From a virus: 20,550 nucleotides of DNA. Both the position numbers and the translations under genes were made by a program. Below the pieces are notes generated by a model. It was not told where the DNA came from, did not search any database, and saw only the letters and a program-made list of their open reading frames with translations. Below are positions 5,903-14,224 of the stretch, in pieces (positions within the stretch are counted from its first letter, which is position 1; every line of letters begins with the position of its first letter). The stretch is taken from positions 1 to 20,550 of the IMG/VR virus record IMGVR_UViG_3300030333_002007, one strand, 5' to 3'.

Positions 5903-5940
5903 CTTTAAGGGGACATTTAAATTTAAACGTCTCCTTAAAG
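5903..5940 (-). promoter_or_regulatory. Dyad element upstream of terL
   Basis: Arms CTTTAAGGGGAC (5903-5914) and GTCTCCTTAAAG (5929-5940) pair over 12 positions with one G-T, around an A/T-only palindromic centre. It lies 20 bases before the terL start. Part of it, AGGGGACATTTAA at 5908-5920, recurs exactly before the terS-like gene. On the minus strand AT-rich -10-like sequence (about 5946-5962) lies upstream of it. It may be an operator, a late promoter part or an mRNA leader hairpin. Confidence 0.5.
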
Positions 5941-5999: not shown

Positions 6000-6570
6000 T
6001 ATACCCCTTATACATCTCTAACCCCCTAACTTTTATATTAAACATCTCTTAAAATTATCTCAAAAAATATCAACACCTTCTTCTATTCCTTTATATCTTC
6101 TCTTATTTTTTTCAATAATTTTTTTATCCTTAATTTAATATCTTCTTTTAACAACATAGAAAGTACCCAAATTATGCAACATATTAATCCTTTATATAAT
6201 ATCTCTCAAATAATTCAATTCACCAAATATTTTTCTCACCCAACTATTTACCCTCTTCTTCATAATAAACAATTATCCCTATCTTATACACTGATTGATA
6301 CCTCAACCAATATCTTCTATACCAAACATCATCAAAATATCAATCAAACACTTCAATCTCAACCAATCTCAAATACCAACTTTTCTGCACCACCTTTATC
6401 TCTTCAACTGCAGTCCCAACCTCAAGCACAATCTCAATCCTTCCAACCTCTTCCTGTGCTTCAACAATCCCAACCTCAACCTGCAGTACCTCAACCTCAA
6501 GCACCTGCAGCACCTCAACAATCTCAACCTCAACCAATAGATAATAATCCTATACCAACTTAATCTCCAA
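6000..6570 (+). other. G-depleted, C-rich tract in the divergent control region
   Basis: By hand count positions 6001-6570 hold 17 G and about 167 C on the + strand (about 3 % and 29 %). From 6000 to about 6157 there is no G at all. The second half is a degenerate array of CCTCAA / CTCAA / CTTCAA units. The first part (to 6173) has no convincing gene; the second part is open as the Pro/Gln-rich frame. Such C-rich, G-poor RNA matches the known preference of Rho for loading sites. Confidence 0.85.
6174..6563 (+). CDS. Pro/Gln-rich low-complexity protein
   Basis: A frame of 129 codons from ATG to TAA, ending 13 bases before a strong terminator. Residues 1-60 are Asn/Ile/Tyr/His-rich; residues 61-125 are a Gln/Pro/Ser/Ala repeat (QSQPQ, PQPQAPAAPQQ). 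The near absence of G removes most Gly, Val, Asp and Glu codons, so the composition may simply follow the DNA bias. In favour of coding: most of the few G bases in the second half fall in first codon positions (GCA, GTA, GAT), and the frame runs cleanly to the terminator. Against: a weak ribosome site (AGAAAG), and a second frame is also open for 80 codons. Function unknown; a linker or disordered protein is conceivable. Confidence 0.45.
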   Translation: MQHINPLYNISQIIQFTKYFSHPTIYPLLHNKQLSLSYTLIDTSTNIFYTKHHQNINQTLQSQPISNTNFSAPPLSLQLQSQPQAQSQSFQPLPVLQQSQPQPAVPQPQAPAAPQQSQPQPIDNNPIPT

Positions 6571-6576
6571 TAAACT

Positions 6577-6601
6577 AAGAGCGCTTACGCGCTCTTTTTT
6601 T
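6577..6601 (+). terminator. Rho-independent terminator
   Basis: Stem AGAGCGC / GCGCTCT with a TTAC loop (6578-6595) followed by six T. It closes the transcript of the G-poor region before the next early genes. Confidence 0.85.
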
Positions 6602-6605
6602 AAAT

Positions 6606-6700
6606 GGTACCGTCATCCTCAGTGCGAGGAGAGTGTCAGAGAACTGACGTTGAAGTTTACTTGAAGTTATTCTGTCGAAATACTGACAGTGCGACCGGCG
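6606..6700 (+). other. Structured segment with direct repeats
   Basis: No gene is seen between 6602 and 6815. This part is richer in G and C than its surroundings and holds three short hairpins: CCTC/GAGG near 6616-6630, TCAG-AGAA-CTGA near 6636-6647, and CTGTC/GACAG near 6672-6689. CAGTGCGA occurs twice (about 6620 and 6687) and TTGAAGTT occurs twice in tandem, 11 bases apart (about 6650 and 6661). It may be a small RNA, an mRNA leader or a protein-binding region. Confidence 0.35.
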
Positions 6701-6771
6701 TCCTATCTTCCTCTCACCTTCCAACATCCTTAAAATTATTTATGGTTGTCACCCAATAATTTTTTTATCCT

Positions 6772-6815: not shown

Positions 6816-7229
6816 ATGCAAAATAATAATACAAAAATACTATTAGATCCGTCAAATGATAAAGAGTTCATCTCGTCGTTCTCTAACAAACCTGTCAGTC
6901 TTGCAGAGTACCTATTCGAGTTCTATCTAGCTAACGTCTTTGATGAAGTCTTTGATCCTGCGTTATATAAATATCAACCAAAAACTCAGAAAAAGAAATT
7001 CATACATAAAGTAATTCCTTTTAATCTCGAGTATGCTTGTCAATATATAGATCCCAGAGATCTTAACAAAATTATAAATAAATATTACGATCTCTTAGTC
7101 AAAGAAAAACTAGAGTCAATTGAAGTATTTAATAATAACAGTGATGATTTCTTAGAAAATTATACTACTGTAGACTTAGATATGAACAGAATAGTTATAA
7201 AGAAGCCATCAAAGAAAGCGAGTGTGTAA
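6816..7229 (+). CDS. Hypothetical early protein, 137 aa
   Basis: Not recognised. A soluble protein with an aromatic-rich acidic centre (LAEYLFEFYLANVFDEVFDP, residues 29-48), a Lys-rich patch and an acidic C-terminal part closing with a basic tail (KKPSKKASV). The start is behind a modest GAAAGTG site. It is followed after one base by the zinc-ribbon gene and then a terminator, forming a two-gene early unit. A host-takeover role would fit its place but is not shown. Confidence 0.75.
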   Translation: MQNNNTKILLDPSNDKEFISSFSNKPVSLAEYLFEFYLANVFDEVFDPALYKYQPKTQKKKFIHKVIPFNLEYACQYIDPRDLNKIINKYYDLLVKEKLESIEVFNNNSDDFLENYTTVDLDMNRIVIKKPSKKASV

Positions 7230-11619: not shown

Positions 11620-11795
11620 CTAGAAAACACTTCAAGGCTTTAGCTCAATTCGCAGGTTCTAATAATTTAGATGATGATTTAATCGTAGAACTTGCTAATA
11701 TATGCAAAAGTTTTAATGGAAATTTCGATCGCAATAAATTCTATGAAGCAGCTATTGCTCAAAGAACTCAATTAGATCGAGAAAAGTTAAGGTGA
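11616..11795 (+). CDS. Small conserved-looking phage protein, 59 aa
   Basis: The N-terminus MTRKHFKALA and the later FNGNFDRNKFYEAA resemble a small helical protein seen in many tailed phages, including cyanophages; its role is unknown to me. Starts in an ATGA overlap. Its last two codons and stop lie inside the 5' end of tRNA-His, so processing of the tRNA would cut the mRNA right at its stop codon. Confidence 0.7.
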   Translation: MTRKHFKALAQFAGSNNLDDDLIVELANICKSFNGNFDRNKFYEAAIAQRTQLDREKLR

Positions 11796-11866
11796 TTATA
11801 GTGTAATGGTTAGCACAACAGTCTGTGATTCTGTTAGTTTGAGTTCGAATCTCAATAGTCACCCCA
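11791..11866 (+). tRNA. tRNA-His (anticodon GTG) with encoded CCA
   Basis: The extra 5' G of histidine tRNAs is at 11791. Acceptor GTGATTA (11792-11798) pairs with TAGTCAC (11856-11862). The D arm has GTG/CAC stem bases and the TGGTTAG loop. The anticodon loop is CTGTGAT with GTG. The T arm has the standard GAGTTCGAATCTC. The discriminator C is followed by encoded CCA at 11864-11866. The innermost anticodon-stem pair is a T-T mismatch. The acceptor stem overlaps the preceding gene's stop. Confidence 0.93.
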
Positions 11867-12628: not shown

Positions 12629-12775
12629 ATGAAAATACATATAACAAATCCATTACTTATTAAAGTAAATCCAGTTGCTAAGACACTTGAAGATCCTAAA
12701 TATCGTCCTCAAGTTATTAAAAGCAAAAAGAAATATAATCGTAAAAAAGAAAGGAAAGACAAATGGCAAAAGTAA
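12629..12775 (+). CDS. Small conserved phage protein, 48 aa
   Basis: Contains NPVAKTLEDPKYRPQVIKSK followed by KKYNRKK. This pattern (NPVAK, then a variable turn, then KKKYxRK) is familiar from tiny basic proteins in many T7-like and other marine phages; no function is known to me. The end overlaps the DUF1599-like gene by 13 bases. The ribosome site is weak. It is the first gene of the replication block after the terminator. Confidence 0.7.
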   Translation: MKIHITNPLLIKVNPVAKTLEDPKYRPQVIKSKKKYNRKKERKDKWQK

Positions 12776-13065
12776 CAGCCTCAACTATATTACATGAAGC
12801 CGCTGAGCTTAAAGAAAAGAAGCAAGCTGATTATCAAGGTGACATGTGGACTGAAGAAGATTACTTTCCATACGGCAATAAGTCGTATATGCATATGATT
12901 CATACTAAATATTTACGTATGAGAAGTCTTGCAGAAAATGAAGACAAAGAAATTAACTTTGAATCATTAGAAGATACGCTAGTAGACATGGCAGTTTATT
13001 GTGCAATGTTCGCTGCATATTTAGAAAATAAAAAGTTAGATAAACCTGTAATGAGGTCAGGATAA
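12763..13065 (+). CDS. DUF1599 / Nmad1-like protein
   Basis: A protein of 100 residues resembling the family named nucleotide modification associated domain 1 (DUF1599, PF07659). It has an N-terminal EAAELKEKKQADYQG helix-turn with Asp23-Tyr24, a central SYMHMIHTKYLRMRSL helix (41-55) and the closing SLEDTLVDMAVYCAMF helix (68-83) with the ExxD pattern of an all-alpha MazG-like fold. Family members sit next to thymidylate-synthase-like base modifiers in phages, as here (two genes on). The exact reaction is not known. Good GGAAAG site. Confidence 0.7.
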   Translation: MAKVTASTILHEAAELKEKKQADYQGDMWTEEDYFPYGNKSYMHMIHTKYLRMRSLAENEDKEINFESLEDTLVDMAVYCAMFAAYLENKKLDKPVMRSG

Positions 13066-13421
13066 TGAGAGCAATACTTATAAATCCTATTGATGAAACT
13101 ATTAAAGAAGTATTCTATGAAGGAAATAAGCAATACTCAAGATTACATTGGATCCAAGATACTATAAATTGTGATACAATTGATGGTGTACGTTTAGATG
13201 AATGGGGTCAATATATGTATGTTGATGATAAAGGAATGCTTACAACTATGAATTATTTCTTTAGATATACTGACAACAGTTATTTTGTTGAACCTATATT
13301 ATTAGCAGGTAAAGCCTTAGTTGTAGGAACTAACGAAGAAGGTGATGATATAGAACCTGAATTAACTATTGGTGATTTAAAATCTAGAATAGAATTTCTA
13401 GGTAGAAAGGCATTACATTAA
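13065..13421 (+). CDS. DUF3846-like protein
   Basis: A protein of 118 residues beginning MRAILINPIDETIKEV, with a VRLDEWGQYMYVDDKG centre and an LLAGKALVVGTNEEGD segment near residue 100. This order is typical of DUF3846, a family common in phages and mobile elements with no settled role. Acidic overall. It is joined to both neighbours by 1-base TAATG overlaps, so it is made together with the Nmad1-like and TS-like proteins. Confidence 0.6.
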   Translation: MRAILINPIDETIKEVFYEGNKQYSRLHWIQDTINCDTIDGVRLDEWGQYMYVDDKGMLTTMNYFFRYTDNSYFVEPILLAGKALVVGTNEEGDDIEPELTIGDLKSRIEFLGRKALH

Positions 13422-14224
13422 TGAGCAGATATGAAAGTAAATATTTGCGTATAGCAGATGAGATACTAATGAATGGTGAATTCAGGGAAACTAGAAATGG
13501 TTGGGTAAAATCTTTATTTACTCAAACATTACACTTTGATATGAGTGATGATAGATTTCCTGTAATTACTACACGTAAAATGAATATTAATAGTGTACTA
13601 GGTGAGTATGCTGCAATAATTAGAGGACCTAAAAATATAAAAGATTTTCAGAAATGGGGGTGTAATTATTGGAATGAGTTCGGAGATCCTGATACTGGCG
13701 AGCTACGCATTGATTACGGTAATAGTTGGGTTGATTATAATGGTGTTAATCAAATAGAAAGATTAATACAGAATATTAAAGAAAATCCTCATAGCCGAAG
13801 ACTAATAGTAGATGCATGGAATCCTGAAAATATACCTACATCTAGCTTACCATGCTGTCATTTTATGTATCAATTTTATGTACAAGATGAAGGCTATGAA
13901 TCCTATTTAGATCTAACAATGTATCAAAGATCTGGTGACTGGATGATTGGTGTTCCTAGTGATATGATATTTGCAGCAACTTTCTTAGCAAATATAGCAA
14001 GTATTACTAACTTAAAACCAAGAAGAATTAATTTAATTGTAGGTGACTGTCATATTTATGAAGAACATTTTGATAAAGTAACTGAACAAATGAGTAGAGC
14101 TATAACAGCACCACCATTATACAGCTTACTACGTCAATTTAAATTTACAGATTTTGAACCTACAGATTTAAATATATTAGACTATAAACATAAGGAGTTT
14201 ATAAAGTATGACCTTAAAAAGTGA
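13421..14224 (+). CDS. Thymidylate-synthase-fold enzyme, probable dCMP hydroxymethylase
   Basis: A protein of 267 residues with the full ThyA layout: Glu62 (base activation), Arg126-Arg127 (phosphate), the nucleophile Cys146-His147 in SLPCCHF, QRSxD at 169-173, and GDCHIY with His211 and Tyr213. The residue aligned with Asn177 of E. coli ThyA, which reads the uracil base, is Asp181 (GVPSD where ThyA has GLPFN). T4 dCMP hydroxymethylase also has Asp there, and in TS this change is known to shift preference to dCMP. I infer transfer of a methylene from folate to dCMP, most likely giving 5-hydroxymethyl-dCMP. A TS with altered residue remains possible. Neighbours (Nmad1-like, MazG-like) fit nucleotide editing. 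Confidence 0.85.
   Translation: MSRYESKYLRIADEILMNGEFRETRNGWVKSLFTQTLHFDMSDDRFPVITTRKMNINSVLGEYAAIIRGPKNIKDFQKWGCNYWNEFGDPDTGELRIDYGNSWVDYNGVNQIERLIQNIKENPHSRRLIVDAWNPENIPTSSLPCCHFMYQFYVQDEGYESYLDLTMYQRSGDWMIGVPSDMIFAATFLANIASITNLKPRRINLIVGDCHIYEEHFDKVTEQMSRAITAPPLYSLLRQFKFTDFEPTDLNILDYKHKEFIKYDLKK

Follow-up and report, generated by a model that had tools for sequence, protein, structure and literature searches.

The window analysed here is a whole IMG/VR virus record of 20,550 bases, and no near match to it was found among phage genomes. Its terminase is 61.8% identical to that of Roseobacter phage CRP-7 (MK613349, PMC6918029) and it has the divergent gene layout of that phage, features by which the window is a marine phage contig related to CRP-7. 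Leftward genes include those for portal and terminase, and the rightward block, labelled early on the basis of gene order, encodes DNA polymerase, helicase-primase and nucleotide enzymes. The lineage is shared by terminase, divergent gene blocks and a phage RNA polymerase. However, CRP-7, a phage of RCA roseobacters, lacks the gene family described below, and has no G-free or C-free run longer than 63 bases.

Between these blocks lies a tract that a preliminary description of this DNA had singled out as starved of G. Its observations held. Exact counting of 6000-6570 on the + strand gave A195 T192 C167 G17, agreeing to the base with the 17 G and about 167 C reported; the fully G-free stretch, put at about 157 bases, measured 159 (6000-6158); the terminator said to close the tract is real (6577-6596, + strand, with a T tail); and the tract does separate the leftward portal and terminase genes from the rightward replication genes. 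The next longest G-free runs are 6177-6292 (116 bases) and 6298-6386 (89 bases). Across 200 second-order Markov simulations of the whole window, the C content of which is about 17%, the minimum was 64 G per 570 bases and the longest G-free run was 62 bases. The tract is one transcription unit, consisting of a G-poor leader, an ORF of a conserved family and a short 3' end. The features in and around it are:

5903..5940, no strand assigned: conserved palindromic block in the terminase leader, matching itself on the opposite strand; left border region of the unit, with normal G
6000..6026, + strand: TATACCCC ... CCCCCTA block, seen in aligned relatives, where G-lessness begins
6000..6158, + strand: G-free 5' leader of 159 bases, the untranslated leader of the 129-aa ORF
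6158..6163, + strand: Shine-Dalgarno-like AGAAAG, containing the first Gs of the transcript; GGAG or GAAAG in relatives
6174..6563, + strand: ORF of 129 aa with a G-poor CDS (14 G after the start codon), member of the conserved family
6564..6577, + strand: G-free 3' untranslated stretch reaching the terminator, as read from the sequence
6577..6603, + strand: intrinsic terminator AAGAGCGC-TTAC-GCGCTCTT with T tail (stem 6577-6596), end of the unit
6604..6720, no strand assigned: control region of the next rightward gene, conserved in relatives, with normal G; right border of the unit

Exact copies of the palindromic block at 5903..5940 occur in 20 relatives, both with and without a G-free unit, and the 6000..6026 block is also kept in relatives of both kinds. 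We infer that the latter block is a promoter -10 or start region; no canonical sigma-70 promoter match was found there, and the transcription starts of the units were placed by conservation and the drop in G. Before the second codon of the window ORF, Gs occur only in the ribosome site and the start codon. The control region on the right contains a palindrome, CTGTC-N8-GACAG, at 6672-6689. The first gene past this region in L006, L010, L032 and L037 encodes a small Cys/His-rich protein of the CDNCYH...HRICMYC type, and these proteins adjoining the G-free unit are probably zinc-binding. The window protein at 6816-7229, used as bait, returned no relatives.

Elsewhere in the window, the only Rfam match is a tRNA, and the tract itself belongs to no Rfam family; a tRNA-His gene (anticodon GTG) lies at 11792-11866. 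Adjoining genes encode a thymidylate-synthase (TS)-family protein (13421-14224) and a DUF1599 (nucleotide modification associated) protein (12763-13065), with a dCMP deaminase encoded near both. The TS-family protein has Asp where ThyA has Asn177 (VPSD), as does every full-length TS-family relative in the window's clade. We take this to be the change familiar from dCMP hydroxymethylases, and these genes suggest that the phage DNA may contain modified cytosine.

The ORF in the unit represents a conserved new family, ranging from 89 to 215 aa across relatives, with an NP(L/I)YN motif, a core of about 60 aa and a Pro/Gln/Asn-rich tail. The proteins are rich in N, Q, P and T. The open frame is conserved under purifying selection: 116 of 267 codon differences were synonymous (0.43, pooled over nine pairs, with four close or overlapping pairs left out), against about 0.26 expected without protein selection. 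Because the ORF thus appears to be under some protein-level constraint, the RNA of the unit is probably translated. No family match was found in PHROGs, phage isolates or bacterial genomes. Two AlphaFold models were of low confidence (pLDDT 55 and 54), and a fold search gave no significant matches. In L006, L007 and L012 the protein core is apparently tandemly repeated, giving a form of 167-170 aa, and L152 and L156, whose proteins are longer, may have a similar form. That the gene sits in a variable slot next to a control region hints at a protein for counter-defence or take-over.

Relatives were fetched by terminase, blind to composition; all are metagenomic contigs, many near-identical. In 21 of 35 loci with terminase identity of at least 80% and 400 bases upstream, a set that includes many near-duplicates, the slot contained 150 or more consecutive bases without G, and the strand was the same in every case. 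In a second clade, reached via the L104 terminase, depletion was seen in 10 of 35. The G-free runs extend to 1,047 bases in L185, 759 in L152, 648 in L007, 618 in L012, 603 in L163 (which is one contig with L117) and 515 in L006; the window (2.7% G) and L019 (4.4% G) are among the laxer units. The unit is unique in the 58-kb relative G003, where the next longest run without G or C is 58 bases. We rejected a general G depletion of phage leaders, as the remaining leaders of G003 and the window have 16-17% G on average; the only other low-G leader in these two is that of the next early gene.

Relatives hold the G depletion while the sequence drifts, a check that the preliminary description had proposed, and a homologue with normal G content, which would have spoken against it, was not found among them. 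The window and L003 differ at 246 of 528 positions in the unit (47%) against 49 of 1660 in the terminase (3%), yet both units are G-poor. L004 and L005, with 97% terminase identity, carry other, G-rich cargo in the slot and show no depletion. In L023 and L073 the slot genes are also G-poor, yet have no detectable similarity to the family, and we rejected them as distant homologues on this ground. The depletion holds its position while the sequence, and sometimes the gene itself, changes. In L004, L016 and L018, which have no G-free unit, the slot upstream of terminase is occupied by a G-rich tract that has repeats around ...CATGTCGTTAAACTGC... and precedes an ORF starting MAKGVTVLVCGGRDFND. 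This tract had no Rfam match and is possibly a structured RNA.

The distribution of G follows the transcript. Summed over 20 units, the G fraction was about 0.14-0.16 upstream, 0.04 in the start block, 0.010 in the 5'UTR, 0.11 in the Shine-Dalgarno window and 0.009 in the CDS. Beyond the unit it was 0.24, at a border that is self-defined, since it is set by the first G after the stop codon. Six of the 20 units have no G in either 5'UTR or CDS, and the G that remains in units is mainly at the Shine-Dalgarno site, start codon and terminator. Synonymous codons ending in G numbered 9 of 1465 in units against 197 of 1226 in other window genes. Between close relatives, changes between A and G numbered 39 in the unit, against 260 between C and T; the corresponding numbers in the terminase were 265 and 281. 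Residual Gs in the CDS have no clear motif (24 of 72 are in GA), and 44 of the 72 fall in the last quarter, mostly at first positions of Glu, Ala, Val and Asp codons. This suggests that the needs of the protein tail override the G purge there. The + transcript supposed in the preliminary description is consistent with these data, as the depletion behaves as a property of such a transcript and is bounded close to the promoter block on one side and the terminator on the other. G is all but missing from the entire message, synonymous and untranslated sites included, as would be expected of an mRNA that escapes base-specific attack.

In some relatives the purge extends to the signals that normally contain G. 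Most units have a Shine-Dalgarno site and an ATG. In clade 2 the Shine-Dalgarno site has been lost from L103, L104, L105, L109, L117/L163 and L185. Directly upstream of the start, where that site would be expected, these six genomes share an identical G-free element of 32 bases, AAAATATATTACATCTAATAAATTAATATATA. This element can form an A-U hairpin and, from its position and conservation, may be an unusual translation start signal. L117/L163 and L185 also have no ATG; the aligned position is ATC and the frame is open, giving a putative start in one contig each. At the 3' end, the units of L007 and L012 finish in a long A/T-only hairpin, and G resumes right after the T run.

Two further A/T-rich elements were seen. 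A conserved A/U-rich motif (AATCATATYAAAA...ATC), often within a long A-U-only stem, is located at the 3' end in L007 and L012, in the 5' leader in L029, L103 and L104, and in both places in L185, so that it precedes the ORF in some phages and follows it in others. In L185, copies of an A/T hairpin that has a T run (AAAAATAATTATTCAATTATTTTTTT) precede several rightward genes, lying in the leaders of the unit and the next two genes, and other relatives have their own versions of this hairpin.

Loss of G has not left these RNAs unfolded. Coding parts folded better than codon shuffles in 13 of 14 cases (z -2 to -10), only that of L003 being structure-free, and whole units had fold z-scores of -5 to -9 against shuffles. 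These scores led us to reject selection for unstructured RNA in most units. The fold excess is not peculiar to the unit, because two of seven control genes also had z below -3. The helices of the units consist almost exclusively of A-U pairs. Since structure is held by A-U pairs, G itself is targeted and not folding.

The preliminary description had proposed that the tract is a Rho-loading or Rho decoy RNA, in effect a single very long rut-like region. Rut sites are C-rich, G-poor, unstructured RNA (PMC9160355). By the C>G bubble definition of that work (PMC9160355) the whole unit is one long bubble, G-poor with C above G, which is its likeness to a rut site. C averages 20% in leaders and 25% in the CDS (32% in the window CDS, and high also in L003), and YC dimers are in mild excess in leaders (451 against 413 expected, z 3.6). 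However, the strictest units are at background C (14% in the CDS of L006 and L007, 14-16% when L012 is included; 61 of 408 in the L185 leader) and contain A-U helices, whereas rut sites are C-rich and unstructured, and most unit RNAs fold more than their shuffles. The protein sequence of the ORF is constrained, and rut sites are masked when an RNA is translated; nor would Rho binding demand the loss of ATG. It is absence of G that is conserved and not C richness, and the Rho proposal, which is not supported, is very unlikely, although incidental Rho binding to untranslated copies is possible. The same description had offered two other readings. A replication origin, or other strand-biased DNA element between divergent blocks, would suit the position of the tract and the change in GC skew there. 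However, the depletion tracks the transcription unit, spares the Shine-Dalgarno site, start codon and terminator, and is missing where the close relatives L004 and L005 carry other cargo, leaving an origin only a slight chance. As for a disordered Gln/Pro/Asn protein whose amino acids need no G, the protein exists and its richness in N, Q, P and T fits. Protein bias as the sole cause is nevertheless ruled out, because G is absent from UTRs and almost absent from the third positions of synonymous codons, neither of which composition explains; we give this reading next to no credence.

Three further explanations concern the template, its mutation or its transcription. A unit whose template is C-free could be read by host RNA polymerase immediately on entry if the phage DNA carried modified cytosine. 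The Asp variant of the TS-family protein, the nearby DUF1599 protein and dCMP deaminase, and the fact that CRP-7, without the unit, is also without a TS-family gene, fit this idea. However, phages of the window's clade have the variant whether or not they carry the unit (L016, L018 and L047 do not carry it), and we therefore rejected the variant as a diagnostic correlate. Host polymerase also reads hydroxymethylated T4 DNA, and this explanation is distinctly improbable. Alternatively, a - strand that is single-stranded for long periods, in an R-loop of leftward transcription or during replication, could be deaminated at cytosine, turning + strand G to A, with functional Gs kept by selection. 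Strand-specific loss of one base is the outcome expected of deamination, the retained Gs are functional, and the skew of a C-free - strand favours R-loops for leftward transcription. Against this, leaders are rich in T (T 0.46, A 0.35), when a change of G to A would be expected to enrich A, two genomes have ATC and not ATA where ATG once stood, the depletion borders match the unit borders, rightward transcription would expose C of the other strand, and an extreme local bias would be required for zero G over more than 1,000 bases. We consider such a mutational purge improbable. Transcription independent of GTP would account for more. If GTP were scarce, or replaced by a chain terminator, each G in a transcript would risk a pause or stop; triggers considered were an alarmone response, nucleotide depletion and ddhGTP of the viperin type, which prokaryotic viperins make. 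This accounts for context-free loss of G in leader, CDS, 3' end and start codon, and explains nearly as much as attack on RNA does. However, translation itself needs GTP and the retention of helices is left unexplained. This cause, too, is unlikely.

We tentatively favour, at somewhat less than an even chance, a small marine-phage unit purged of guanosine by RNA-level selection, with a putative G-directed RNA attack as the likeliest agent. Its parts differ in strength. Selection against G in the unit is highly probable, and RNA rather than DNA is probably the level at which it acts; attack on RNA as the agent is a possibility that we hold with some doubt. Under such an attack every G in the RNA of the unit would be costly. 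The putative attacker during infection could be a host abortive-infection ribonuclease, an RNA-modifying toxin or a phage shut-off factor, and the gene would have to be expressed while the attack runs, its message hence being kept free of targets. Loss of the Shine-Dalgarno site in clade 2, the ATC that replaces ATG in two genomes and the A/T-only terminators of L007 and L012 all fit RNA-level escape, as do the fast turnover of the slot and the unrelated G-poor genes found there in L023 and L073. CmdT, a known toxin whose chemistry depends on G, though on GA, shows that phage defence can act in this way, and it also spares double-stranded RNA (PMC11618068). On the other side, G is present in every other gene of the phage, and the unit would therefore need an importance under attack that no other gene has; the laxer units of the window and L019 also tolerate some G. 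Known motif-specific toxins do not fit, because the residual Gs lack a clear motif.

The pattern is strong, is present in two phage clades and requires a cause acting on each G. Once identified, it would prove to be a defence or shut-off system able to recognise individual guanosines in RNA, GTP-free transcription, or extreme strand-biased mutation, and the genomes that have ATC at the expected ATG would offer a test of initiation by bacterial ribosomes on a G-free message. The extreme form of such an mRNA has no Shine-Dalgarno site, an AUC start and a 32-base A/U/C element, and elsewhere an A/T-only terminator. It is quite possible, though less likely than not, that these mRNAs have evolved to hold no guanosine and are thereby protected from a guanosine-directed process in infection, which would be a new principle of message immunity. 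To our knowledge, no gene has been described that does without one of the four RNA letters; open-access papers yielded no precedent, although this is no proof that none exists.

The G-less cassettes used in transcription assays are likewise transcribed stretches without G, but these are laboratory constructs with no coding function or natural selection. ACA-less mRNAs survive the MazF interferase (PMC9102682), and the likeness proposed here is that a message which no longer offers an RNA cutter its target stays expressed while others are destroyed. However, those messages are engineered and lack one triplet, whereas the unit described here is natural and lacks a whole nucleotide, UTRs included, its attacker being putative. 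The CmdTAC anti-phage system makes a G-dependent attack, at GA dinucleotides, on single-stranded mRNA in infection (PMC11618068). It resembles the proposed process in its dependence on G, in acting on RNA during infection and in sparing double-stranded RNA. CmdTAC is an attacker and needs GA, whereas the unit would represent the side of escape, and avoids G in every context.
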